Assembly: GCF_017255015.1 (NCBI RefSeq)
Contig: NZ_JAFKCS010000024.1
Span: forward strand, 2,204-53,460
Length of the DNA stretch: 51,257 nt
Reading direction: 5' to 3'
From: Bowmanella yangjiangensis
Lineage (GTDB): Bacteria; Pseudomonadota; Gammaproteobacteria; Enterobacterales; Alteromonadaceae
Shown: piece after piece, positions 3,288 to 32,641 of the stretch
Numbering within the stretch: position 1 is the stretch's first letter
Layout: each line of letters begins with the position of its first letter
Program-made: the position numbers and the translations under genes
Notes under the pieces: generated by a model
Database searches by the model: none
Told to the model about the DNA's origin: nothing
What the model saw: only the letters and a program-made list of their open reading frames with translations

Positions 3288-3926
3288 TTAGATTTTCTGG
3301 ATCTTGACCAGATGGCGTTGCGCATCCAGACCCGGTACTTCCAGCTTGACGACCTCGCAGACCTTGAAGTTCGCGGGAATTTCGTCCAATTCTTCGGCTG
3401 GAAATTGGCCCTTGAGGGCTAAAAAAGTCCCTTGAGAATCTACCAGATGCTGGCACCAGTGCAACATATCTTTTATGGATGCAAAAGCGCGGCTTAGAAC
3501 GCCATCATAAGGCACATGCTGATGAAACTCTTCCACACGACTCTGCACCGCCTGAACATTGGTCAAACCAAGCTCATGAACAACTTGTTTAATAAAACGT
3601 ATCCGTTTGCCCAGACTGTCTAACAGCACAAACTTTGTATCAGGCAGCATGATGGCCAGAGGAATCCCAGGTAAACCAGGCCCAGTTCCTACGTCGATAT
3701 AGTGCTTACCAGTGATTTGCGGCGCAACAACCACGGAGTCAAGAATATGCCTAATCAGCATTTCCTTAGGATCGCGCACAGAGGTGAGGTTGTAGGCTTT
3801 GTTCCACTTATCCATCAACTGTACAAAACCCACAAGCTTCTCAGTCTTTGATTGCTCTACAGGCAAGCCCATTTTGACCAGATAGGTATTCAAACTGGCC
3901 AGCAATTCACTATCAATTTTCATCAT
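3288..3926 (-). CDS. rsmG: 16S rRNA (guanine527-N7)-methyltransferase
   Basis: RsmG (GidB) methylates G527 of 16S rRNA using S-adenosylmethionine. The product of about 212 residues (E. coli 207) has the SAM-binding loop [15 protein letters not shown] and the downstream SRAFASI segment. The longest frame begins with a TTG at 3929, but the ATGs at 3926 and 3923 follow at once. With ATG 3926 the start overlaps the mnmG stop as TGATG, which suggests translational coupling. Confidence 0.96.
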
Positions 3927-5827
3927 CAAGCTGATTCTTTATCCAATTTTTTTAGCAAGCCCTGCTTTTTGAGGTGTACAAGCAGCAATGAGATAGCAGC
4001 AGGTGTGATCCCGGAGATCCTGGATGCTTTACCAACAGTTTCAGGGCGGGCCGATTTGAGCTTGGCCACCACTTCGTTGGACAAACCAGAAATGCCGGCA
4101 TAATCCAGATCAATAGGCAGTAAGGTATTCTCATTGCGTTGCGTCCGCTCGATTTCATCTTTCTGCCGCTCGATGTAACCAGCGTACTTGATCTGAATCT
4201 CAACTTGCTCAGCAGCTTGAGGATCATTCAGGCCAGGGCCAAGATCGCTGATTTGCATCAAGTCGGCATAAGTAACTTCAGGTCGACGAACCAACTCTTC
4301 TAGTGAATGCTCGCGAGAAATCGGATTTTTCAGCTTCAGATTCAACTCAGGAACTGCTGCATGTCCAGGATGGATCCATTGACTACGCAAGCGCTGTCTT
4401 TCAACCTCAATGGCTTCCAGTTTAGCGTTAAAAGCAGACCAGCGAATATCATCCACCAGCCCCAATTCGCGACCTTTAGCGGTTAAGCGCAAATCCGCGT
4501 TATCTTCGCGCAGTAGCAAACGATATTCTGCGCGACTGGTAAACATACGATAAGGTTCCTGCGTGCCCATAGTTGCCAGATCGTCGATCAACACACCAAC
4601 ATAAGCCTCATCACGACGAGGTGTCCAGCTGGCTTTCCCCTGAACCTGTAATGCAGCATTCATACCTGCGATGAGCCCCTGGGCGCCGGCTTCTTCATAG
4701 CCAGTGGTACCGTTAATTTGTCCGGCAAAGAACAACCCATTAATGTACTTAGTTTCCAAAGATTGCTTGAGATCTCTGGGATCAAAAAAGTCATACTCGA
4801 TGGCGTAACCTGGGCGAACAATATGAGCATTCTCAAATCCCTTGATGGAGCGCACTAATTGCCACTGAACATCAAAAGGCAAACTAGTGGAAATCCCATT
4901 CGGGTATATTTCAATGCTATTTAACCCCTCAGGTTCAACAAAGATCTGATGTGAGGTTTTATCCGCGAAACGTACGATCTTATCTTCAATAGAAGGGCAA
5001 TATCTTGGCCCAATTCCTTCAATAACCCCAGCATACATCGGTGATTGATGCAGATTATTGCGGATAATTTCGTGCGTTTTCTCATTAGTATGGGTGATAT
5101 AACAAGGGATCTGTCTGGGGTGATCCTGGATCTTACCCAAATAAGAAAATACCGGTAAAGGATCATCTCCAGGTTGTTCCTGCATGGCTGAAAAATCCAA
5201 TGTTCTAGCGTCTAAACGCGCCGGTGTACCGGTTTTCAGTCGCCCGACTCTGAATGGCAGTGCTCGCAATCTTTGCGCCAGAGCATTGGATGGCGGATCC
5301 CCAGCCCTGCCTCCCTGATAATTCTGCAGGCCAATGTGGATAATACCACCCAGGAAAGTGCCAACAGTAAGAACAACAGCACTTGCCTGAAATTTTAATC
5401 CCATCTGGGTAACCACACCGGTCACCCGATCGTTTTCAACGATGAGATCTTCGCAAGATTGTTGAAACAAGGTCAGGTTAGGTTGCTGTTCAAGAATGTT
5501 GCGAATGGCTGCCTTGTACAGGCTACGGTCAGCTTGTGCGCGGGTCGCGCGCACTGCAGGGCCCTTGCTTGAATTCAGAGTTCTGAATTGGATCCCACCC
5601 AGATCCGCGGCAAGTGCCATAGCCCCCCCTAGGGCATCTATCTCTTTGACCAGATGGCCTTTACCTATTCCACCAATAGCAGGATTACAGGACATTTGCC
5701 CGAGTGTATCGATGTTATGTGTCAGCAACAGGGTTTTCATACCCATTCTGGATGATGCTAATGCCGCTTCTGTGCCTGCATGACCGCCACCAATGACAAT
5801 CACATCAAACTTTTCTGTGTAAAACAT
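3926..5827 (-). CDS. mnmG: tRNA uridine-5-carboxymethylaminomethyl modification enzyme MnmG
   Basis: With MnmE, this FAD enzyme installs the cmnm5 group at the wobble uridine of several tRNAs. The 633 residues match the family (E. coli 629). The FAD dinucleotide-binding loop [10 protein letters not shown] is at residues 13-22, and [12 protein letters not shown] carries one of the conserved cysteines. A helical C-terminal domain for MnmE binding follows. It flanks oriC on the left, as in E. coli. A weak promoter candidate lies upstream: a TAGAAT-like -10 (minus strand, 5862-5867) followed by a GC-rich discriminator, the kind linked to stringent control. Confidence 0.98.
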
Positions 5828-5948
5828 CTTTCACTCTGACCTGCCAAAATTTGGGGCGCATATTCTATAGATTTTCCTGGCTAAACGGAACGATTAAAAT
5901 TCGAGCAGGGGATCTATGCGATCCTCTGATCCGGATAAGAAAAGAAAG

Positions 5949-5971
5949 GATCTATTCTGATCTCTTTATTT
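5949..5971 (+). other. oriC AT-rich 13-mers (DNA unwinding element)
   Basis: Two overlapping 13-mers begin with GATCT: GATCTATTCTGAT (5949-5961) and GATCTCTTTATTT (5959-5971). The second differs at one base from the E. coli right-hand 13-mer as I recall it (GATCTATTTATTT). The following 20 bases are almost pure A/T. In E. coli such repeats are where DnaA first opens the duplex. Confidence 0.75.
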
Positions 5972-6028
5972 ATATTTATTATATTTAAGCAGACACGATC
6001 CTCTGGATAAGCCATTTTAATTATTACC

Positions 6029-6041
6029 AATCAATAACATA
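6029..6041 (+). promoter_or_regulatory. Possible IHF site in oriC
   Basis: AATCAATAACATA fits the IHF consensus WATCAANNNNTTR with one mismatch. It lies between the R1-like and R5M-like DnaA boxes, the position of the IHF site in E. coli oriC. The position is the stronger argument; the consensus alone is loose. Confidence 0.45.
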
Positions 6042-6106
6042 GGTAACGATCTTAGGTGTGAGTAATCGTTGATCTATTGGGTATAAGCTGGGATCAAAAC
6101 GCGATC

Positions 6107-6115
6107 TTATCCACA
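6107..6115 (+). promoter_or_regulatory. DnaA box (R2-equivalent)
   Basis: Perfect TTATCCACA. It follows the conserved block at 6081-6096 as R2 does in E. coli, where R2 is TTATACACA. Confidence 0.88.
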
Positions 6116-6180
6116 GTCGATTTTCTTGTCTAAGTTATTCTTGCATTGATCAAAGGTTGATCACAGTAAACCTATAGATC

Positions 6181-6189
6181 TTATCCACA
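6181..6189 (+). promoter_or_regulatory. DnaA box (R4-equivalent)
   Basis: Perfect TTATCCACA at the right side of the origin, in the same orientation as E. coli R4. Confidence 0.88.
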
Positions 6190-6213
6190 ATTCCTTTATT
6201 CCTGTGGCTTCGC

Positions 6214-6222
6214 TGTGAATAA
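6214..6222 (-). promoter_or_regulatory. DnaA box TTATTCACA
   Basis: A consensus TTATNCACA box on the minus strand, facing the box at 6181 across 24 bases. It lies beyond the R4-equivalent, so it may be an extra box compared with E. coli oriC. Confidence 0.7.
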
Positions 6223-6369
6223 ACTATGAGTTGATCCTGAGTAAGATCCTAAGATCTGAGTGGCGATAAGGGAGATCAGCGATCAGGAAGGTGCGGCGAG
6301 ATCTGGGGATAATGATCTGAAAATGATGGCGGCGCTGACGGCGATATTTTTTGCCGTCAGCAGAAATAG

Positions 6370-7224
6370 TTATCTAACTTGGTTAGGAACATAGCCTGAG
6401 GTGGATTTTTTACTGGCAGATGTAAAATCGTCTGTGACTGTTTTACGTCGGCTGGGACCACTGAATCGAACTTTATAGGTGTCGTATTCCTTGATTGATT
6501 CAAAGCAATAAGGCCCCAGAGCCTGTTCAAGCCCAGTGAGATCATGATTAGTTATTAGAATACAGTTTTTATTCTGGCTATGACGCTGGCGCAGTAAGGT
6601 GCCTAACCAGCTTTGTGTGCTCTTCTTTAGTACGGTTTCGTTTACGCAGACTTCGTCTAAGATTAATAGATCCACAGACATAAGCTCCTGGGTGATCTCA
6701 CGAAACTTCTGTCCTATGTCATCCTTGGCTGAATAATCATAGGAAAAGTACCGCATTTCCAGCAAGCTGGTCAGTTGACGATACAAAACGGATATTTCAT
6801 AGCGATCTATAAGCTCATGCGCTATGGCGCCGGCAATATGCGATTTTCCTCGACCATAGTCCCCATAGAACACCATCATATGTGAGCCACTGGCTCGCCA
6901 GCTGGGGTCACTATGGGCGGCTATAAAAGACTGTGCAATGCTCACCGCTTCTGTGACGTCCGGACTGTCCTGAATGAGGTTGTCAAATGTCCACTTCGGA
7001 TTTAAGTCAGAACGGCCGTGAATTTGCTCTATGCGCTTCCGTTTGGCATCTAGTTGCTGCTGACGTACTTCGTTGTTAGCTTGTTGTTCGTACTCTTTGC
7101 GAAGCTGCGCATAGTCTTTTACTTGCTCTACCGGTTTGGTCTTCCCCAAGGTTCGGCCGAGTTGTTCGATTTTATCCTTTAGGCTTTGCACTGTATTTCT
7201 CCACCAGTTTCTTGGCGTTTTCAT
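6370..7224 (-). CDS. DnaC-like replicative helicase loader ATPase
   Basis: AAA+ ATPase of the DnaC/IstB type, expected to load the DnaB helicase. It has Walker A GDYGRGKS (121-128), Walker B LLILDE (186-191) and sensor 1 ITNHD (224-228). A charged helical N-terminus (about 30-70) is followed by HGRSDLNP and WTFDNL, comparable to the DnaC linker. At 284 residues it is longer than E. coli DnaC (245). The ATG at 7224 has GGAG nine bases upstream but overlaps the dnaT-like gene by 53 bases. A GTG at 7191 has a stronger signal (GGTGGAGA, 6 bases away) and cuts the overlap to 20. It ends at the edge of oriC and is transcribed into it. Function is inferred from motifs and from pairing with a DnaT-like gene. 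Confidence 0.85.
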   Translation of the reverse strand: MKTPRNWWRNTVQSLKDKIEQLGRTLGKTKPVEQVKDYAQLRKEYEQQANNEVRQQQLDAKRKRIEQIHGRSDLNPKWTFDNLIQDSPDVTEAVSIAQSFIAAHSDPSWRASGSHMMVFYGDYGRGKSHIAGAIAHELIDRYEISVLYRQLTSLLEMRYFSYDYSAKDDIGQKFREITQELMSVDLLILDEVCVNETVLKKSTQSWLGTLLRQRHSQNKNCILITNHDLTGLEQALGPYCFESIKEYDTYKVRFSGPSRRKTVTDDFTSASKKSTSGYVPNQVR

Positions 7225-7816
7225 CTGCTGCTACTCCGGGTGTAGCAGAAACAAATTGTTGCCCGATTTTATGTCTGCTACCCGGTGTCAGACGAGACTT
7301 TTTCAATTGTAGAACGAATCGCTGCGTCCACTGAAATTGGGTCAGGCTAATTTCCGGACGACTTAACCAATATGCGATGAACTCGCCGACGTCTTCATCA
7401 GAATACTGGTTATCCAACAAACCTACCAACTGACTTAATTCATCAAATAATCTCTGGTTTGGGCGCCAGTCGACAGACATACACTGCCAATGCAGATGTA
7501 AGGTTTGGTATTGGGTCTGTGATGCCACAACCAGAGGAAGTAGTAATTGCTGGCCATTTAAGCTGCGACTGCTAATACATTCATCGCGGCTGTCTACTAA
7601 ACCAGCGTCAGCAAGTTCTCGTAATAACTGATTGATATGTCTGCCTAGACTCAGCAACGGCTGTTTACTGTTAAGCAGAGCTAGTAGTTTACGGTAGTTC
7701 AGGGGCTTGGTTAAGCCAGTTGTATTATCAGCGTCTGGTCGCAAGCCCAGGCAATAAAGTACTCTGGCTTCGTTGCTCAGAGCCCCATTTAGCGCAATCA
7801 ATTCGGACTGATTCAA
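7172..7816 (-). CDS. DnaT-like primosomal protein
   Basis: The 214-residue product has an N-terminal winged-helix-like region (about 10-75, with HINQLLRELADAGLV as probable recognition helix). The C-terminal part (about 118-178) contains FIAYWLSRPEISLTQFQWTQ, which resembles the DnaT ssDNA-binding domain (aromatic-rich, FxxYW...QWxQ). DnaT partners DnaC in helicase loading in enterics. The start is TTG at 7816 with AGAGG six bases upstream, overlying the mioC stop three bases away, so the two are probably translationally coupled. It precedes the dnaC-like gene in the same direction. I infer a DnaT role; the N-terminal half has no counterpart that I can place. Confidence 0.72.
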   Translation of the reverse strand: MNQSELIALNGALSNEARVLYCLGLRPDADNTTGLTKPLNYRKLLALLNSKQPLLSLGRHINQLLRELADAGLVDSRDECISSRSLNGQQLLLPLVVASQTQYQTLHLHWQCMSVDWRPNQRLFDELSQLVGLLDNQYSDEDVGEFIAYWLSRPEISLTQFQWTQRFVLQLKKSRLTPGSRHKIGQQFVSATPGVAADENAKKLVEKYSAKPKG

Positions 7817-7819
7817 TTG

Positions 7820-8278
7820 TTACCTCTGCAACCGGGATTTTATTGCGTCGCGAACTAAGTCGGATTCAAACCAGGCTACAACTTCATCTTCAGGAACGGG
7901 GTGTTGTAACACATCAATCAGTATGGGCTCAGCCAGTAGCGTGGCACCTGCGTTATTTAACAGTGTCTGCATCTGCTTGGCGCCTTCACAGAAAGTATCG
8001 TAGCTACTGTCCCCCAGTCCGACTAAAAGATAGGCAAGCTGAGGTAATTGCTGTTCTTCAAGCTGTTTGGAAAAAGGTTTTATATTGTCTGGTAGCTCAC
8101 CCGCCCCATGAGTTGATGTGCAGACAAGCCATAGGGCTGAATTGTCTAAATCAGCCAGATCCGGCTTTAGATGCAGTTGGTTGGGAATTTCCATTTCCTG
8201 CAATTTTTCGACTAGTGCATCGGCAACATACTCAGTTGCACCCAACATTGAACCGACCAGTATTTCTATTTTTTGCAT
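7820..8278 (-). CDS. mioC: Flavodoxin-like protein MioC
   Basis: FMN-binding flavodoxin-fold protein; E. coli MioC was identified as needed for biotin synthase activity in vitro. From ATG 8278 it has 152 residues (E. coli 147) and begins MQKIEILVGSMLGATEYVAD, with the phosphate loop in GSMLGATEY, followed by CTSTHGAGELPDN and GLGDSSYDTFC, the other flavin-contact loops. A longer frame to 8311 would start inside the promoter -10 element, so the shorter start is preferred. In E. coli mioC abuts oriC; here two loader genes lie between. Confidence 0.93.
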   Translation of the reverse strand: MQKIEILVGSMLGATEYVADALVEKLQEMEIPNQLHLKPDLADLDNSALWLVCTSTHGAGELPDNIKPFSKQLEEQQLPQLAYLLVGLGDSSYDTFCEGAKQMQTLLNNAGATLLAEPILIDVLQHPVPEDEVVAWFESDLVRDAIKSRLQR

Positions 8279-8309
8279 GTCAAAATGTGCTGATAACCTC
8301 AATGCCGGC

Positions 8310-8318
8310 ATTATATCA
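8310..8318 (-). promoter_or_regulatory. Extended -10 promoter of mioC-dnaT-dnaC
   Basis: The minus strand reads TGATATAAT, a perfect TATAAT preceded by the extended -10 TGN. No good -35 is present, as is common with extended -10 promoters. Transcription would start near 8303, about 25 bases before the mioC ATG, and run through the loader genes into oriC. A 10-base palindrome TTGTCGACAA (8321-8330) lies just upstream and could bind a regulator. Confidence 0.6.
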
Positions 8319-8440
8319 AGTTGTCGACAAATTAGCCTTGATTGCTTTTATGCCTGACGGCCGTTGACTATGTTTATAGCTATAGTGAAATGATCAGCGT
8401 AGTTTTAACAGACAAGTGCTTTGTGAGATCAGAGTTGCCA

Positions 8441-9751
8441 ATGAGCCAAGCCACTTATATTGAGGAAGCGTTGCTGTTCAGCAACGAAGATGAGGAGTTA
8501 CAAAATTGTCGCGATAGCAATCAACCCTGGAAGGTGCTGATTGTTGATGATGATGAAGAAGTACACATACTGACGCGTTTGGTATTACGTGACTTAGTCT
8601 TTGAGCAGCGTCCACTGTTGTTGTTAAGTGCTAAAAGCGCGGCAGAGGCACGTAAGGTGCTAGCCGATGAGCAGGATATTGCACTGGTGTTGCTGGATGT
8701 AGTGATGGAGTCTGATGATGCAGGCTTACAGTTAGTTAAGTTTATAAGGGGGGAGCTTGGGAATGATGAAGTGCGCATTATTTTGCGCACCGGGCAACCT
8801 GGCCATGCACCAGAGCAGGAAATTATTCTCCAGTATGATATTAACGATTACAAAGGTAAGACTGAGCTAACCGTTCAGAAGCTTTTTACAGCGGTAATTG
8901 CTTCTCTTCGTACTTATATGTACATCGAAAAAGTCACGCAGTTAAATCAACATTTAGAACAAAAAGTGCAGGATCGTACCCAGGAGCTCGAAAAAGCCAA
9001 CACCCGTTTACAACAATCCCTGAAACTTTTGGAAGATGGTGAAAAGGCGGGCAAACAGGTCCAGTTCAAGCTACTACCGGAAAAGGAACTTTCTTTAACT
9101 TCATTGAAGTTCTCCCATTTTTTAATGCCCTCAGAAATTATGAGTGGAGATTTCGTCGATTACTTTTCTATCGATGACCGTTATATCGGGTTTTATTTGG
9201 CGGATGTGGCTGGCCACGGGGTGTCGTCTGCTTTTATTACTATTTACCTAAAGCGCTTTATTACCACTCTGCAGGAACAATATCGTTTCAATAAGCAAAC
9301 TGCACTTATCGATCCCGCCTCTGTATTGTCTATGTTGAATCAAGCATTAATCTCCGATGATTTGGGTAAGCATATTGCGATTTTTTATGCTGTGGTTGAT
9401 TTGCAGTCCAATCAATTGAGCTACGCGAATGCTGGGCTCTTTCCCTGGCCGGTATTGATTCAAAATGGGCAATCCAGCTTTATAGAGACTAAAGGCACGC
9501 CGGTAGGATTGTTTGATTTTACGCAATATCAAACGAGTCAATGCCATCTGGCTGATGAATTCAGGCTATTTGTTTGTTCCGACGGCATACTCGACATCAT
9601 GCAAGACAGCAATCTGGAAGATAAAATGAGTAAATTACTTGGCTGTCTGAAGCTTATACCTAAAACTCAGAATGTCTTGGCTGAGCAGTTTAAAATTACC
9701 GATTCGACCAGTTTGTCAGATGATTTGACAGTATTGAGCGTACTTCGCTAA
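8441..9751 (+). CDS. Response regulator with PP2C-type serine phosphatase output
   Basis: The 436-residue protein joins a receiver domain (about 30-150; acidic DDD at 36-38, phosphoacceptor Asp86 in LLDVVM, Lys near 138-140), a coiled coil (about 160-205) and an RsbU/SpoIIE-type phosphatase domain (about 205-435; metal-ligand motifs SGDF at 236-239 and ADVAGHG at 254-260). Such proteins dephosphorylate a STAS-domain antagonist when phosphorylated, as in Pseudomonas HsbR. The next gene encodes exactly such a STAS protein. The frame is open to 8342, but ATG 8441 (MSQATYIEEAL) gives the expected N-terminus. No RsbW-type kinase is present in the protein or nearby. Confidence 0.88.
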   Translation: MSQATYIEEALLFSNEDEELQNCRDSNQPWKVLIVDDDEEVHILTRLVLRDLVFEQRPLLLLSAKSAAEARKVLADEQDIALVLLDVVMESDDAGLQLVKFIRGELGNDEVRIILRTGQPGHAPEQEIILQYDINDYKGKTELTVQKLFTAVIASLRTYMYIEKVTQLNQHLEQKVQDRTQELEKANTRLQQSLKLLEDGEKAGKQVQFKLLPEKELSLTSLKFSHFLMPSEIMSGDFVDYFSIDDRYIGFYLADVAGHGVSSAFITIYLKRFITTLQEQYRFNKQTALIDPASVLSMLNQALISDDLGKHIAIFYAVVDLQSNQLSYANAGLFPWPVLIQNGQSSFIETKGTPVGLFDFTQYQTSQCHLADEFRLFVCSDGILDIMQDSNLEDKMSKLLGCLKLIPKTQNVLAEQFKITDSTSLSDDLTVLSVLR

Positions 9752-9774
9752 GCGAAACTTGATTCGGAGGTGTT

Positions 9775-10278
9775 ATGAGAGACGAACAGGTTTATTTTGC
9801 CAATCATGCGGGTTTATGTGTGTTTAAGTTTGTCGGAGAACTAAGGCATACCTCGGTGGAGGGTATGGACGGATTTATCCGTCATTTATTTGAGCAGCAA
9901 CACGCATGCTCTCGGGTTTCTGTTGATTTAACTGAGACCGAATATATGGACAGCACCTGTTTGGGGTTGCTTGCTATGCTGGCCAGACTCAGCTTGAGTA
10001 ACAGCAAAGGAAAACCAAACTTGTTCTGTACCAATGCCAATATGTTATTGTTGCTAAAGAGCATGTGTTTGGATCAGGTTTTTCATTTCGTCGAAGAACG
10101 CATAGAAGATATTCAGATGGATGAGTTAATTACGGAATCAACAACGGAGCCAACAGCTGATGCGCAGGCTGAGCTTATTTATCAAGCACACAAAGAACTT
10201 AGCGCACTGAGTGAAGACAATAGAAAGTTATTCCAACCGGTTGTAGAACTGATGGAGAAGGAGCGGCAAGGCAATTAA
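9775..10278 (+). CDS. STAS-domain anti-sigma factor antagonist
   Basis: The 167-residue protein has an N-terminal STAS domain (about 5-105) with EYMDSTCLG, in which Ser60 is the expected phosphorylation site in the DS(T/S) loop. A helical tail of about 60 residues follows. It has a strong ribosome-binding site (GGAGGTG) and starts 23 bases after the phosphatase gene, so it is probably its substrate. HsbA of Pseudomonas and SypA of Vibrio have the same general plan. The downstream target cannot be read from the sequence. Confidence 0.85.
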   Translation: MRDEQVYFANHAGLCVFKFVGELRHTSVEGMDGFIRHLFEQQHACSRVSVDLTETEYMDSTCLGLLAMLARLSLSNSKGKPNLFCTNANMLLLLKSMCLDQVFHFVEERIEDIQMDELITESTTEPTADAQAELIYQAHKELSALSEDNRKLFQPVVELMEKERQGN

Positions 10279-10384
10279 ATATTGGCCTTGCCAAAAATAG
10301 GTCGCGTTGGATTATTAACAACTTTATACCTGCATAACCAGCACGTTTACACCTATTATGTTGGTGAATAATATGAACTAGTGG

Positions 10385-11749
10385 CTATTTACCGATACAG
10401 AAAGAGCTGAATATTCTTCCCAACAGATCGTCAGAGCTAAATTCACCTGTGATTTCGTTCAGATGTTGCTGCACTAAACGAAGTTCTTCTGCCAGTATTT
10501 CTCCGGCAATACTGCTGACCAACTGCTCGTAGCCTATATCTAAGTGTTCTGCTGCCTTTTCTAGTGCCTCCAAATGGCGTCTTCTGGCAATAAATTGCCC
10601 TTCGGTGCTAGCATCAAATCCCATACAGTCTTTTAGATGTTGAGCTAAAAGATCTATACCTTTGGCCTGGCTGGCACTCAGACGAATCAAAGTGTTTCCC
10701 TCTATCTCTGCTTTTTCAACTGGTTCACCGGATAAATCGACCTTATTGCGGATTAAGGTGACTTTTGTGCCGCTTGGGAGTCTTTCTATAAATTCGGGCC
10801 AGATTACCTTAGGATCGGTTTCGCTGGTTTCGCAGCTGTCGACCATCATTAACACCCTGTCAGCTTGGGCGATTTCCTGCCAGGCACGCTGAATACCTAT
10901 TTGTTCCACCTTATCATCGCTATCTCGCAAACCTGCGGTATCAATAATATGCAGGGGCATACCATCAATATGTATGTGCTCTTTCAAAACGTCACGTGTG
11001 GTGCCGGCAATGTCGGTGACAATAGCGGCTTCTCGGCCGGCTAAGGCATTCAGCAGGCTAGATTTACCGGCATTGGGGCGACCGGCTATAACGACGCGCA
11101 TTCCTTCGCGCAGGATACTTCCCTGGCGAGCTTGGGTGCGTATTGCTGATAGCTGTTGGATGATGTCTTGCAGGTCATTTTGAACTTTGCCGTCGGAGAG
11201 AAAGTCGACTTCTTCATCCGGAAAGTCGATGGCCGCTTCAACATAGATTCGCAGATGGATAACCTGTTCAACTAAGTGGTGCACTTGTTTAGAAAATTCA
11301 CCCTGCAGGGAGCGAACAGCAGAGCGGGCGGCCTGTTCAGAGCTGGCATCAATCAGATCTGCGATGGCCTCTGCCTGAGCCAGGTCCATCTTATCATTCA
11401 GAAAAGCGCGTTCACTGAATTCGCCTGGACGCGCTATCCGCAGGCCATCAACGGCAAGAATGTGACGAATCAACATGTCCATAACAACCTGACCACCGTG
11501 TCCCTGGAGTTCCAGTACATCTTCGCCGGTAAAGGAATTAGGTGCCTTGAAGAACAACGCTATGCCCTGATCCAGAGGCTTTCCTTGTTCATCATGAAAA
11601 GGCAGGTATTCCGCAACACGAGGAGCAGGGACTTTACCCAGTACACGCTTGGCAACCTGCTGGGCTTGCTGGCCTGATACTCGGATGATGCCCACACTTC
11701 CTCGCCCTGGGGCGGTAGCCTGAGCAACAATGGTCGGTTGTCTGGTCAT
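10385..11749 (-). CDS. mnmE: tRNA modification GTPase MnmE
   Basis: Works with MnmG on wobble uridines. The 454 residues equal the E. coli length. It has an N-terminal formyl-folate-binding domain (about 1-120), a helical domain and a G domain with G1 GRPNAGKS (223-230), [12 protein letters not shown] (270-273) and NKVD. The C-terminal FCIGK (450-454) carries the conserved catalytic cysteine. The yajQ gene ends only five bases upstream, so the two are probably cotranscribed. Confidence 0.98.
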
Positions 11750-11754
11750 TACGC

Positions 11755-12237
11755 TTAATCGCGGAAATTGGTGAACTGGAATGGCTGCCCAAGGTCGGCA
11801 GATTTGACCAATGCAATGGCTTCTTGCAGGTCATCTCTTTTCTTGCCGGTAACGCGCACTTGATCACCCTGAATAGAGCTTTGCACCTTCACCTTGCTTT
11901 CCTTGATCAGTTTGCTGATCTTTTTCGCCATGTCTTGTTCAATACCTTGGCGAAACACCAATATTTGCTTATAGGTTTTACCACTGCGCTCGATACCTTT
12001 TTGCTCAATGCTTGCGGTACTGACTCCACGCTTGGCGCATTTAGAGCGCAAAATTTCCTGCATCTGTTGAAGCTGGAATTCTGCCTCTGCAATCAGCGTA
12101 ACCTGATTATCTTTTTGTTCAAAACTGGCTTCTATTCCACGAAAATCAAAACGGGTATCCAGTTCGCGGATGGCGTTATCTACGGCATTTTTCACTTCAA
12201 CCAGATCAATTTCAGAGACGATGTCAAAAGATGGCAT
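11755..12237 (-). CDS. yajQ: YajQ family nucleotide-binding protein
   Basis: The 160-residue product begins [20 protein letters not shown], the family signature, and matches the usual length of about 160. YajQ proteins have two ferredoxin-like domains and bind nucleotides; a Xanthomonas member binds cyclic di-GMP. It lies between yidC and mnmE, where most gammaproteobacteria have nothing. A terminator for yidC lies just upstream, so yajQ probably has its own promoter in 12238-12290. Confidence 0.95.
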
Positions 12238-12290
12238 GTCGGTTCCTCTAGGGTGATGAATAGGGGTATTTTACCCAACAGCTAAAGAAA

Positions 12291-12309
12291 AGGCCCGTAT
12301 AACGGGCCT
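12291..12309 (-). terminator. Rho-independent terminator after yidC
   Basis: Eight-base perfect stem AGGCCCGT/ACGGGCCT with a three-base loop, followed on the minus strand by TTTTCTTT. It lies 13 bases past the yidC stop and ends the rpmH-rnpA-yidD-yidC transcript before yajQ. Confidence 0.85.
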
Positions 12310-12321
12310 CTGAATTTGCTT

Positions 12322-13953
12322 TTAGTGGGATTTGATACCGCGTTTTTCCATGGATGCGTAGATCATCTTAGCCTGAACTAGAGTGATGACATTACTAATC
12401 AGCCAGTACAGTACCAGACCCGCCGGGAACCACAGGAAGAACACGCTCATCATGACTGGCATCCACTGCATGATTTTCTGCTGCATTGGATCCTGTATGG
12501 TCATAGGCTGCAGTTTCTGTAACAAGTACATACTGGCACCGGTTAGCACTGGTAGCACAAAGTAAGGGTCTTTAACTGACAAGTCGGTAATCCACAGGAA
12601 GAAGTCTGCATGACGTAGTTCAACACTTTCCAGGAATACCCAGTAAAGAGCCAGGAATATAGGCATTTGCAGCAGCAGAGGGAAACAGCCCCCCATAGGG
12701 TTCACTTTTTCCTTCTTGTACATTTCCATCATGGCCTGAGACATCTTTTGACGGTCTTCGCCATAGCGTTCTTTGAGCGCCTGCATTTTGGGTTGCAAAG
12801 CACGTAGTTTAGCCATGGATTCGTACTGAGCTTTAGTCAGCGGATACATGGCGCCTTTAACAATAATAGTGATGATAATTATGGCCAGGCCCCAGTTACC
12901 CACCAAGCCGTGGATAAATTGCAGTAACCAGAACAAGGGTTGTGAAAGCCACCACAGAATGCCGTAATCTACAGTTAAATCTAAACCTCTTGCGAGCTGT
13001 ACCAGATCGTCCTGATCTTTAGGACCTGCATAAAAGGTGCTGCTTAGCTTAAGGGTTTCACCTGGCGCAAGGGTTTTCAGGCTACCTTTAAAACCAATGC
13101 TGGCGAATTCATTGTTCAAAATACGGCTGTAAAGCGTATTTTGTTCTTCTTGCGGTGGGACCCAGGCTGAAACAAAGTAATGCTGAAGCATGGCAACCCA
13201 GCCGCCTTGGGTATTTTCATTTAATTTTTCGTCTTCAATATCGTCAAAAGCATGCTTCTGATAGCGCTCTTCGGCTGTTGAATAGGCGGCGCCACGGTAG
13301 GTAGGCATAAACATGCTGCCTTCCGGACCTGCTAATGACTGCTTTAATTGTGCATATTGTTGCACATGAATAGGTGCTGCGGAGTTGTTCTGAACACTGT
13401 ATTCGACGTTAATGTCATGCTTGCCTTTCTTGAAGGTAAAGGCTTTGGTAATCATTACACCATTGGCGTTTTGATAGGTAAGAGGAACTATTAAAGTGTC
13501 TTCGGTCAGATGATACTCGGTGGCCTGAACCGTATAAACTGGGCGCCCCTGAGCTGAGGAATCCGGGCCATCAGGACCAATCAGCCCACTTTGCGCGATA
13601 TATTGATGGCCTGGCTCTGATGTCAGTAGCGTAAAGCTCTCAGTGGAGCCTTGAGTGACCGGGAAGTCAGCGAGCTTAGCTGACACTATGTCACCACCCT
13701 GAGTGTTTATTTGCACATCCAGGCTATCAGTTACCACGTGGATCAACTTACCCTGGGTTTCGGCCAATGCTGCCGGATGCTGGCTATCAGCAACAGGAAC
13801 ATCATCCGACACAGGACTACTTATGTTAGCGGTACTGCCTGCAACTTCGGCTGTTTGAACAGGCGGTTGGCCATAATCCAATTGCCATTGTTGCCACAAT
13901 AAAAAGCTGACCAAGGCCAGGCCAATGAGAAGAAAGCTTCTTTGGGATTCCAT
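12322..13953 (-). CDS. yidC: Membrane protein insertase YidC
   Basis: Inserts proteins into the inner membrane alone or with SecYEG. At 543 residues it has the gram-negative layout: N-terminal helix (about 5-20), a large periplasmic domain (about 25-340) and the five-helix insertase core. The core contains MYPLTKAQYESM, NPMGGCFPLLLQMPIF and FFLWFPAGLVLYW. The position of the E. coli hydrophilic-groove Arg366 is Lys366 here, keeping the positive charge. It follows yidD by 17 bases. Confidence 0.98.
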   Translation of the reverse strand: MESQRSFLLIGLALVSFLLWQQWQLDYGQPPVQTAEVAGSTANISSPVSDDVPVADSQHPAALAETQGKLIHVVTDSLDVQINTQGGDIVSAKLADFPVTQGSTESFTLLTSEPGHQYIAQSGLIGPDGPDSSAQGRPVYTVQATEYHLTEDTLIVPLTYQNANGVMITKAFTFKKGKHDINVEYSVQNNSAAPIHVQQYAQLKQSLAGPEGSMFMPTYRGAAYSTAEERYQKHAFDDIEDEKLNENTQGGWVAMLQHYFVSAWVPPQEEQNTLYSRILNNEFASIGFKGSLKTLAPGETLKLSSTFYAGPKDQDDLVQLARGLDLTVDYGILWWLSQPLFWLLQFIHGLVGNWGLAIIIITIIVKGAMYPLTKAQYESMAKLRALQPKMQALKERYGEDRQKMSQAMMEMYKKEKVNPMGGCFPLLLQMPIFLALYWVFLESVELRHADFFLWITDLSVKDPYFVLPVLTGASMYLLQKLQPMTIQDPMQQKIMQWMPVMMSVFFLWFPAGLVLYWLISNVITLVQAKMIYASMEKRGIKSH

Positions 13954-28843: not shown

Positions 28844-31588
28844 CTAGTGTGCCTCGTCCCAGTTGTCCCCGAGGCCAGCTTCTACAACCAGTGGTACATT
28901 CAAACTGGCTGCTTGTTCCATCAGCTTAATTATTTTTTGCCTGTTTTCTTCCAGATTGTGTTCTTTTATTTCAAATACGAGTTCATCGTGTACCTGCATT
29001 ATCATGCGTACATCACCATCTGGTTGCTGATCAATCCAGTTATCAACGGCCAACATAGCCTTCTTGATGATATCCGCAGCTGTCCCTTGCATGGGGGCGT
29101 TAATCGCTGCTCGCTCAGCTCCCTTGCGTCGAGCGGCATTGCTGGACTTGATTTCGGGCAGATAAAGCCTGCGACCAAATACGGTACTGACATATCCCTG
29201 TTCTTTAGCACGCTCCCGGGTTGTTTCCATATATTGCAGGACACCTGGATAGCGTTCGAAGTAAAGATCCATATAGTTTTGGGCTTCGGCGCGGGGGATA
29301 TCCAATTGCTGTGACAGACCAAAGGCAGACATGCCGTATATCAGGCCAAAATTGATCGCCTTCGCACTGCGTCTTTGATCAGCTGTGACTTCTTCTAAGG
29401 GAACACCAAATACTTCTGAGGCCGTCGCTCTGTGAATATCCTTTCCAGCAGCGAATGCGGTCAGCAGTCCTTGGTCTGCTGACAAGTGCGCCATGATTCT
29501 CAGTTCGATTTGAGAGTAATCTGCCGCAACTATCTTGTAGCCAGGTGATGCCACAAAAGCTTGCCTTACCCGGCGCCCTTCTTCTGTTCTTATCGGAATA
29601 TTTTGTAGGTTAGGGTCAGTAGAAGACAGTCGACCCGTTGCTGCAACGGCCTGGTGATAAGAGGTGTGTACGCGCCCGGTGCGATGATTGATCATCTTGG
29701 GTAGTTTGTCGGTGTAAGTATTTTTCAGCTTGCTCAGCCCCCGGTATTCCATCAACAGCTTGGGTAGCGGGTACTGATGAGCTAATACCTGTAATACATC
29801 TTCAGATGTAGAAGGCACTCCTTTGGGGGTTTTCTTAATCACAGGCAGGTTCATTTTTTCAAATAATATTTCCTGCAACTGCTTGGGTGAACCAAGGTTA
29901 AATTCGCAGCCTGCCAGCTCGTGTACTTGCTTTTCCAGCTCAATAATGCGGCTGGCAAGTTGCTGGCTTTGATGCTTGAGCTTTTGGCTGTCTATCAGTA
30001 CACCTTGTACTTCCATTTTGGACAGCACGCTGGCGAGGGGAACTTCGATGTCGGTTAATATGCTTTTAAGCTCAGAAACCTGTTCCAACTCAGGCCAAAT
30101 TGCCTGGTGCAGCCTTAATGTTATATCTGCATCTTCAGCGGCATAATGTGCCGCCTGTTCAAGGGGAATTTGGTTGAAAGTAAGTTGCTTGGCGCCTTTA
30201 CCGGCAATGTCTTCAAAATGGACCGTTTTATGTCCCAGGAATCGCTCAGCCAGGCTGTCCATATCGTGGCGACCAGCAACGCTGTTACTTACATAGGATT
30301 CCAGCATGGTATCAAAGGCGATGCCTTGTAAATTGATGCCATGATTGGCCAATACATTCTTGTCGTACTTTATATGCTGTCCGACTTTCAAGCATTGGGG
30401 ATTCTCCAGCAACGGCTTCAATTGCTGTAGTACCCAGTTTCGATCCAACTGCTCAGGGGCATCAACATAATCATGTCCGACCGGCAGGTAAGCTGCTTCA
30501 CCCGGTGCGACGGCGAAACAAAAGCCCACTAACTCCGCTTCCATATAGTCCAGACTGGTTGTTTCTGTATCTAAGGCGATAAGCGGGGCTGCCTTAAGCT
30601 TGTCCAGCCAACGCAAAAAATGTGCTTCATCCAGAATTGTTTCATATTGGTCCGCGCTAATATCAGCGGCCATTGGAGATGCAGCTGCAGTGGCGTCAAC
30701 CGGTGATTCATGCGCCAGCTCCTCTAACCAGCGCTTAAACTCCAGCTCTGCGAATAATGTTGCCAGTTTTTGCTTGTCAGCCTCTCCTGGGGTTAGTTCT
30801 TCTGGTCGTAAAGGAAGCTCAACATCGGTCTTGATTGTGGCTAATTGATAAGACAGTTTGGCCTGTGTTTCATATTCTTGCATCTTCGCAGCCATGGTCT
30901 TGGCGCCGCGAAATTCAAGCTGAGCAATGTCATTCAATCTGGAATAGATGTCATCTATTCCTCCCAGTCCCTGCAGCATAGCTAAAGCACTCTTGTCACC
31001 CACGCCGGGGACGCCTGGAATGTTGTCGACCTTGTCGCCTTTAAGTGCCAACAGGTCGATAATCAGTTCTGGGGGAACGCCAAATTTCTCCACCACGCCG
31101 GTTGGATCCATCAGGGTATTGGTCATGGTGTTGATCAATGTGACGTTGTCATCAACCAACTGGGCCATGTCCTTATCCCCGGTACTGATAAGGGTTGGGA
31201 TCCCGGCTTCACTCGCCTGCCTGGCTAATGTGCCGATGACATCGTCTGCTTCAACACCTTCGATCACAATAATAGGTAAGCCCATGGCTTTAATGATTTC
31301 GTGAATCGGCTCAATCTGGACTCTCAGATCATCCGGCATGGGCGGACGATGCGCTTTGTATTCCGGATAGATATCATCCCGAAAGGTCTTACCTTTCGCA
31401 TCAAACACAACGGCCATGTGAGTAGGATGAAATTGCTTGATCAAGCTGCGAAGCATATTGATCACACCGTATACGGCATTGGTCGGTTGGCCTTTAGAAT
31501 TGGACAGATCCCTAATGGCGTGAAAAGCCCGGAATAAATAAGAAGATCCGTCTACTAATATCAGAGGATAAGCTGGTTGTGTCGACAT
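28844..31588 (-). CDS. polA: DNA polymerase I
   Basis: Repair and Okazaki-fragment-processing polymerase. The 914 residues (E. coli 928) carry a 5' nuclease domain (about 1-290), a proofreading domain (about 325-510) that keeps the DxE motif in [10 protein letters not shown], and a polymerase domain with motif [15 protein letters not shown], motif [15 protein letters not shown] and motif [11 protein letters not shown]. All three activities appear intact. The gene is divergent from elbB across 399 bases that hold three DnaA boxes. Confidence 0.99.
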
Positions 31589-31657: not shown

Positions 31658-31687
31658 TTATCCACAACCTTTGTATGTTGTGGATAA
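31658..31687. promoter_or_regulatory. Inverted pair of perfect DnaA boxes upstream of polA
   Basis: TTATCCACAAC (31658-31668) and its exact reverse complement GTTGTGGATAA (31677-31687) face each other across eight bases. Each arm holds a perfect DnaA box (31658-31666 plus; 31679-31687 minus). It is 70-100 bases before the polA start codon, close to where its promoter should be. The arms could also form a hairpin in RNA. Confidence 0.8.
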
Positions 31688-31821
31688 CTTTGTTGATGAA
31701 GTTTTCTCTTGCGCAGGAGTAAGCTTTACCCAGTTACAGGCAAATGCTTAAAAGTCTTTAAAATACTGGCTTGGTATCAAAACAGGGGACATCTAGACCT
31801 GTTGTTATTCTTATAATCCTT

Positions 31822-31830
31822 TGTGGATAA
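31822..31830 (-). promoter_or_regulatory. Third perfect DnaA box, polA-elbB interval
   Basis: TTATCCACA on the minus strand, 135 bases from the inverted pair. The remainder of the 399-base interval (31589-31987) shows no gene and no clear sigma-70 promoter. Confidence 0.75.
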
Positions 31831-31987: not shown

Positions 31988-32641
31988 ATGAACAAAGTTG
32001 CTGTGATATTAAGTGGCAGTGGTGTATTTGATGGCGCTGAAATCCATGAATCGGTGTTGACCATGTTGGCGTTAAGTCAGCGAGGCGTCGCTTACCAGTG
32101 TTTCGCCCCCGATATATCGCAATTGCATGTGGTTAATCATCTGACTGGCGATGTGGTTGAAACAGAGCCGCGCAATGTTTTAGTTGAAGCGGCCAGAATT
32201 GCCCGGGGGAATGTACTACCTGTGTCTGCATTAGCTGCCGTTGACTATGATGCTTTGTTGGTACCTGGTGGCTTTGGTGCGGCAAAGAACCTGTGTAATT
32301 TTGCCCTGGTTGGTGCAAATTGCCAGGTGGAACCCAGCGTATTAAGAGCCTGCCGGGAATTTGCTGAATTAGCCAAGCCAACTGGCTATATGTGTATAGC
32401 GCCGGTTCTGGCGGCCCGTGTTTACGGCGAAGGGGTGAGGTTAACTATAGGTAATGATAAAGAGACTGCCGATGCCTTGCGTATTATGGGTGCCGAGCAT
32501 GTTGACTGTGAGGTTGATGATATCGTGGTGGATAAGACGCATAAGCTGGTTACGACCCCGGCCTATATGTTAGCGAAAGATATTGCTGAGGCCGCACAAG
32601 GGATAAACAAGCTGGTTGACGCTGTTTTAGCGTTTCGCTGA
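31988..32641 (+). CDS. elbB: Glyoxalase-type DJ-1/PfpI family protein ElbB
   Basis: The 217 residues equal E. coli ElbB in length and share MxKxxVILSGSGVFDGAEIHE, NHLTGDVVETE, ALLVPGGFGAAKNL and GYMCIAPV. The last carries the nucleophile-elbow cysteine of the class I amidotransferase-like fold. E. coli ElbB has glyoxalase activity in vitro; its physiological role is unclear. Ten bases separate it from the next gene, so they are probably cotranscribed. Confidence 0.95.
   Translation: MNKVAVILSGSGVFDGAEIHESVLTMLALSQRGVAYQCFAPDISQLHVVNHLTGDVVETEPRNVLVEAARIARGNVLPVSALAAVDYDALLVPGGFGAAKNLCNFALVGANCQVEPSVLRACREFAELAKPTGYMCIAPVLAARVYGEGVRLTIGNDKETADALRIMGAEHVDCEVDDIVVDKTHKLVTTPAYMLAKDIAEAAQGINKLVDAVLAFR

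Follow-up and report, generated by a model that had tools for sequence, protein, structure and literature searches.

The closest described relatives of the helicase-loading genes considered here are the dnaT-dnaC pair of Escherichia coli, the dna[CI] genes of Alteromonadales and Aeromonadales, and the O/P-type replication modules of phages. In this study, we analyzed a DnaT-like and a DnaC-like gene located between mioC and the replication origin (oriC) in a 51,257-nt stretch of Bowmanella yangjiangensis DNA (NZ_JAFKCS010000024.1; hereafter the window, within which all coordinates are given). Replacement of DciA by a phage-type loader in this clade is already published: in their 2016 paper (PMC5109545), Brezellec et al. 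describe dciA as having given way to a phage-type dnaC in “a restricted clade of Alteromonadales,” dciA being lost where dna[CI] is present. The dna[CI] genes of that paper are very probably the same as the DnaC-like genes described here, given that its data set includes both Alteromonas macleodii and Aeromonas hydrophila; its main text is silent on dnaT and mioC and counts two events. A literature search covering titles and the beginnings of abstracts (the 2016 supplement being outside its scope) returned no treatment of the mioC-dnaT-dnaC-oriC order or of a two-domain DnaT. Three points appear to be new in addition to the known replacement: the origin-side insertion, for which DciA-bearing genomes serve as controls; a DnaT made of two domains; and the relationship of both genes together to their Aeromonas counterparts.

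The pair resembles E. coli DnaT-DnaC in the position of dnaT ahead of dnaC, in the DnaC fold, in the single-stranded DNA (ssDNA)-binding C-terminal domain of DnaT and in chromosomal residence. It differs in that its DnaC is 20.7% identical to that of E. coli, which falls outside its clade, in the unmatched N-terminal half of its DnaT, and in location, the E. coli pair being far from oriC (in K-12, as the initial sequence-only reading had pointed out, mnmG, oriC and mioC are adjacent and dnaT-dnaC lie ~0.68 Mb off). Phage O/P-type modules, which combine a DnaT-like C-terminal domain with a DnaC-like loader, share the adjacent arrangement of initiator followed by loader, but their loaders fall outside the clade in the DnaC tree and are less than 30% identical to the DnaC-like protein among the matches listed, which cover 40 of 237 records in one search and 30 of 435 in another. 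The Bacillus DnaD/DnaB plus DnaI system is unlike the pair in that the C-terminal domain here is that of DnaT, the winged-helix match being at the level of a common fold only.

We propose, with a probability of roughly 0.87, that the pair is the clade's resident chromosomal helicase-loading system, comprising a phage-type DnaC and a DnaT that were inserted between mioC and oriC in an ancestor, with subsequent loss of dciA. The family, the fold, the gene order, the exclusion of DciA and the single clade of carriers were established computationally.

Conservation of the locus and exclusion of DciA

The placement of the DnaT-like and DnaC-like genes between mioC and oriC, as originally claimed from the window, was confirmed and is shared by relatives. 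A contig scan yielded 79 related loci, which come from named Alteromonadaceae genera or metagenome-assembled genomes (MAGs), except for one Thalassotalea MAG and one MAG assigned to Gammaproteobacteria only. The mioC-dnaT-dnaC order is observed in all 79 of them (with mnmE located in 77 and mnmG in 74), the closest named relative being Bowmanella pacifica (DnaC 97% identical). A dciA gene elsewhere in the Bowmanella genome, the presence of which would have told against a resident loader, was not found by a PF05258 search of the assembly (listed as 100% complete, 922 contigs), nor was a second DnaC copy at E values up to 1.

Of the 147 family genomes searched, 52 carry a strong DnaC match (E < 1e-100) and 89 carry DciA, and the two co-occur in none (PF05258 in 0 of the 52 carriers; Fisher's p 2e-33, kinship ignored). 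Weak DnaC matches were detected in four more genomes, all of them with DciA, and six genomes (G074, G085, G101, G107, G133, and G138) have neither DciA (PF05258) nor DnaC, possibly representing cases of a weak DciA or of another loader. In a partial tally across the order, one genome of family f25 (G292) contains both DciA (E 3.3e-5) and DnaC.

The phylogenetic context of this exclusion was obtained from an MnmG tree of 24 DnaTC rows, 18 DciA rows and E. coli. All DnaTC carriers group together there (SH-aLRT 98), as a single clade within the DciA rows; the tree was built by a quick method for a chosen subset and from a gene adjacent to the locus. The spacing between mioC and mnmG in 59 genomes (24 DnaTC and 35 DciA) follows the same division, with at least 1971 bp in 24 of 24 DnaTC genomes vs. 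at most 645 bp in 29 of 35 DciA genomes, and the two genes are separated by nothing but oriC in the majority of DciA relatives. Two DciA genomes depart from this compact layout: G020, with 1936 bp holding an antisense GGDEF-type gene (by eye), and G022, with mioC and mnmG 42 kb apart. The tally omits G029 (no mnmG found) as well as G035, G049, and G050 (best mioC match weak and elsewhere). From the compact mioC-oriC-mnmG region of DciA relatives and the single DnaTC clade, we infer one entry at the origin followed by DciA loss; thus, the pair probably entered once, between mioC and oriC. The replacement of DciA by a phage-type loader appears pinned down in one family to one clade and a single insertion point at oriC, and the unreplaced sister genera, serving as controls, make it testable by loader swaps between close relatives.

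Properties and proposed roles of the two proteins

Classification of the ATPase as DnaC-type rather than IstB, suggested by the sequence-only reading, is borne out by a PHROG match to the DnaC-like loader family phrog_50 (4e-31), by Foldseek, where E. coli DnaC chains are the best matches (E 1e-11) and IstB ranks fourth, and by the DnaC tree described below, where the sole IstB row is a far outgroup. The AAA+ core motifs GDYGRGKS, LLILDE, and TN, which we take to be Walker A, Walker B, and sensor 1, are conserved, and the mean column identity of the DnaC-like alignment is 67% (44 rows). A score of 60.9 bits with the NCBIfam DnaC equivalog NF005931, below its cut-off of 357, makes the ATPase a distant relative and not an orthologue of enterobacterial DnaC; the IstB model NF038214 scores 50.4 bits vs. 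a cut-off of 200. N-terminal helices are predicted at residues 7–25 and 38–72 (block pLDDT 57–90), the DnaC-like profile spans E. coli DnaC residues 1–242, and the structural alignment begins at model residue 9 or 29. In E. coli DnaC, it is the N-terminal helical region that binds DnaB. That the ATPase might instead be an IstB-type transposon helper or a prophage remnant, with no part in chromosomal helicase loading, is highly improbable given the above identity across rows, the DnaT partner, and the neighboring mioC, oriC, and mnmG; no IstA was recognized by eye among the open reading frames (ORFs) of the window. We rejected a derivation of the locus from IstB or from a prophage because of the gene order conserved in all related loci and of the DnaC tree.

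The DnaT-like protein consists of a predicted winged helix (residues 1–98) and a DnaT ssDNA-binding C-terminal domain (residues ~106–180); with the NCBIfam DnaT equivalog NF002770 it scores 20.4 bits, under the cut-off of 201. Its N-terminal half had initially been taken for an addition that E. coli DnaT apparently lacks. This view stands insofar as a winged helix is predicted and no sequence match to the N-terminal domain of E. coli DnaT was found, but not as regards a missing counterpart, because E. coli DnaT is described as possessing an oligomerising N-terminal domain of its own (PMC13377028). Of 67 DnaT members, 66 have a DnaT domain that aligns with the C-terminal portion of a phage initiator family, and one of the 67 weakly matches the DnaD-like phrog_186 (0.0027). 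A second DnaT-domain ORF of the Bowmanella genome (G000:C479:1918-2121; L162) is on a contig with phage-like ORFs, as judged by eye, and is possibly a prophage or contamination.

Helicase loading and the division of labor between DnaT and DnaC, as we infer them, would proceed as follows. Once DnaA has opened oriC, the DnaC-like AAA+ protein would grip the DnaB ring via its N-terminal helices, open the ring and set DnaB on ssDNA, like E. coli DnaC. The C-terminal domain of the DnaT-like protein would coat ssDNA, its winged helix may self-associate or contact duplex DNA, and the protein as a whole would help DnaB-DnaC to reach restarting forks and, possibly, oriC. Several considerations weigh against the proposed role. 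DnaT of E. coli serves restart. Arginines 216 and 220 of E. coli DnaC are aligned to Tyr and Ser in the ATPase, which may point to a difference in catalysis between subunits or to a local error of the alignment. DnaC is not separable from DnaA or IstB by fold scores alone, the exclusion of DciA amounts to approximately one event on the tree and not to 52 independent ones, and our literature search gave no experiment on these proteins.

Kinship with Aeromonas and comparison with phage loaders

A 4.94-Mb Aeromonas caviae record carries, side by side, a DnaC 38% and a DnaT 29% identical to the Alteromonadaceae pair, with no mioC, mnmE, or mnmG match within the 16.7 kb fetched around them. The record (L096, NZ_AP026896.1) is filed in PLSDB as plasmid pKAM479_3 and is probably a chromosome. 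Among 247 genomes of the order, both DnaT and DnaC are found in 17 genomes of family f25, adjoining in the fetched loci of 17 of 17 and grouping with A. caviae in the DnaC tree; more distant versions of both genes are present in 12 genomes of family f3 (on the same contig in 2 of 12). The DnaT match spans both halves in f25 and f3 and the C-terminal domain only in seven matching genomes of family f18. The two-domain DnaT is common to Alteromonadaceae and Aeromonas (192 columns, E 5.8e-33).

The DnaC tree comprises 45 rows: a selection of 19 Alteromonadaceae, 11 Aeromonas-type, and 3 f3 sequences from the larger number available, 10 phage or prophage rows, E. coli DnaC, and one IstB, with the caveats that branches are long and that the phage rows are some of the best tblastn hits. 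Alteromonadaceae, Aeromonas-type, and f3 sequences (33 rows) form one clade (100/99) that excludes E. coli, phages, and IstB, the nearest phage row being that of Staphylococcus phage 187, whose branch is long (96/73). The alternative, in which Alteromonadaceae and Aeromonadaceae each acquired their pair independently from related phages, is a serious though tentative one, consistent with the two events listed in the 2016 paper (PMC5109545) and with the different locations of the pair, at mioC-oriC in Alteromonadaceae and away from mioC, mnmE, and mnmG in A. caviae. The approximately unbiased (AU) test does not reject a tree in which the Alteromonadaceae rows are constrained to join the phage and E. 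coli rows while the Aeromonas side stays separate (p-AU 0.18). Yet the best tree unites both DnaC groups, constraining Aeromonas and f3 with phages and E. coli gives a p-AU of 0.024, and the two-domain DnaT is shared by both sides, a tblastn search of the phage collection having found no relative of its N-terminal half. A further constraint, with Aeromonas rows among phages, gave a p-AU of 0.011, which says little since it also split Aeromonas from f3. Three scans of viral contigs yielded no relative. A single Alteromonadaceae-Aeromonas lineage is favored by these sequence comparisons, and not more than favored, because the AU tests are mixed.

The shared two-domain DnaT and DnaC raise the question of whether loader modules travel between bacterial lineages, and the two-domain DnaT offers an N-terminal half that may act like DnaD. 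A more far-reaching reading would combine both aspects: the DnaT-like protein would be a DnaD-type origin adapter, its winged helix engaging oriC duplex and its DnaT domain the separated strand, so as to deliver DnaB-DnaC to the DnaA-opened oriC, and one cassette lineage would have displaced dciA in both Alteromonadaceae and Aeromonas via one domestication and transfer, being planted at its own origin in Alteromonadaceae. As a whole, we consider this combination doubtful.

Locus architecture, oriC and transcription toward it

The mioC, DnaT-like, and DnaC-like genes run head to tail toward oriC on the minus strand, with mnmG beyond it (Table 1). Their close junctions, as described in the sequence-only reading, all hold on the sequence: a 3-base gap between mioC and the DnaT-like gene (7817–7819), the TTG start, a Shine-Dalgarno motif (AGAGG) directly before the mioC TAA that serves as the ribosome site of the DnaT-like gene, and an overlap of dnaT and dnaC by 53 nt from ATG 7224 or by 20 nt from GTG 7189–7191 (GGAG ahead). 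The latter start matches by eye that of most dnaC relatives, and Bowmanella-type relatives retain the upstream start too.

Table 1. Coordinates of the loader locus and its surroundings in the window.
Feature	Position	Strand	Remarks
mnmG (gidA)	3926–5827	-	ORF on the far flank of oriC; named by likeness to E. coli mnmG
oriC	5828–6369 (542 bp)		Between mnmG and the DnaC-like gene; E. coli-like
Hairpin	6334–6361	-	9-bp perfect stem, 10-nt loop; directly past the dnaC stop; no T tract; candidate operon end
DnaC-like AAA+ helicase loader	6370–7224	-	284 aa from ATG 7224; 273 aa from GTG 7191
DnaT-like gene	7172–7816	-	TTG start; predicted winged-helix half and DnaT C-terminal domain
mioC flavodoxin	7820–8278	-	ORF 7820–8311, likely start ATG 8278; NCBIfam NF006531 MioC 162.8 bits, cut-off 158
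Extended -10	8310–8318	-	TGATATAAT; ahead of mioC; from sequence
mnmE	10385–11749	-	Named by eye; gene 5' of mioC in most relatives

The origin contains 20 GATC sites (vs. ~2 expected). When no more than one mismatch is allowed, its DnaA boxes number five (two of them exact) and lie at 6002(-), 6107(+), 6181(+), 6214(-), and 6304(-). No such box occurs across 6313–12587 and, therefore, none at the mioC promoter; TTGTCGACA, two mismatches from a DnaA box, is directly 5' of the extended -10. A search of 5700–8500 against Rfam gave no match.

The extended -10 ahead of mioC is identical in loci L002, L004, and L005 and present as a variant in L001; it is absent from the output of a consensus promoter scan requiring a -35 element. 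Of the 79 loci, 10 have the motif TGnTATAAT in the 100 nt preceding mioC (vs. 0.34 in shuffles), 7 of the 10 resembling near-copies with the same spacing. In 32 of 77 loci, no more than 30 nt separate the end of mnmE from mioC, and there a longer single operon is, therefore, likely. An own mioC promoter is a local feature, kept in near relatives and not general.

Transcription into oriC by design, as the sequence-only reading had envisaged, was not upheld. The first 70 nt past dnaC fold with a z of -4.4 vs. shuffles in the window and below -2 in 38 of 79 sequences, compared with 9, 2, and 5 of 79 for the control stretches (the next 70 nt, after dnaT and after mioC, respectively); 40 shuffles were used per sequence, L070 was left out as too short, and related sequences are non-independent. 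Strong hairpins are present past dnaC in the window, L001, L002, L004, and L005 and missing in L003 (z 0.5); that of L001 resembles the hairpin of the window, and those of L002, L004, and L005 are unlike it in sequence. Of 80 sequences, 18 have a hairpin with a T tract past dnaC, vs. 1.0 expected from shuffles; the window is not one of the 18.

A regulatory coupling, whereby the loader operon is positioned so that its transcription enters oriC and aids opening, would fit the direction of all three genes and the lack of a canonical terminator between the DnaC-like gene and oriC in the window, as well as the described repression by DnaA of the E. coli mioC promoter beside oriC (PMC5835720). Of the 41 loci whose dnaC-mnmG gap is above 850 bp, 18 have a same-strand ORF of 254–271 aa between these genes, so that transcription in this direction may continue there. 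These points are countered by the hairpins and T-tract terminators directly past dnaC, by the lack of a DnaA box at the mioC promoter, and by relatives in which mioC is beside oriC already without the dnaT-dnaC pair. Such coupling is, in our view, improbable, and the folding patterns make read-through coupling as a rule across the clade unlikely.

The dnaC-oriC gap is an insertion hotspot, exceeding 850 bp in 41 of the 74 loci having dnaC and mnmG. In the two inserts examined, the same-strand ORF in L007 (region 6931–8955) encodes a DUF4097 protein beside HMG-CoA reductase, and L074 holds an ABC-ATPase gene.

On the other side of the locus, between mnmE and mioC (8342–10278), genes for a response-regulator plus SpoIIE phosphatase protein and a STAS protein are encoded on the opposite strand, and are matched only in L001–L005 of the 79 loci. 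Elsewhere in the window, three exact DnaA boxes (31658+, 31679-, and 31822-; region 31658–31830) are located between a polA-like gene (28844–31588, by eye) and a gene at 31988, and could allow DnaA to regulate polA or serve for its titration.
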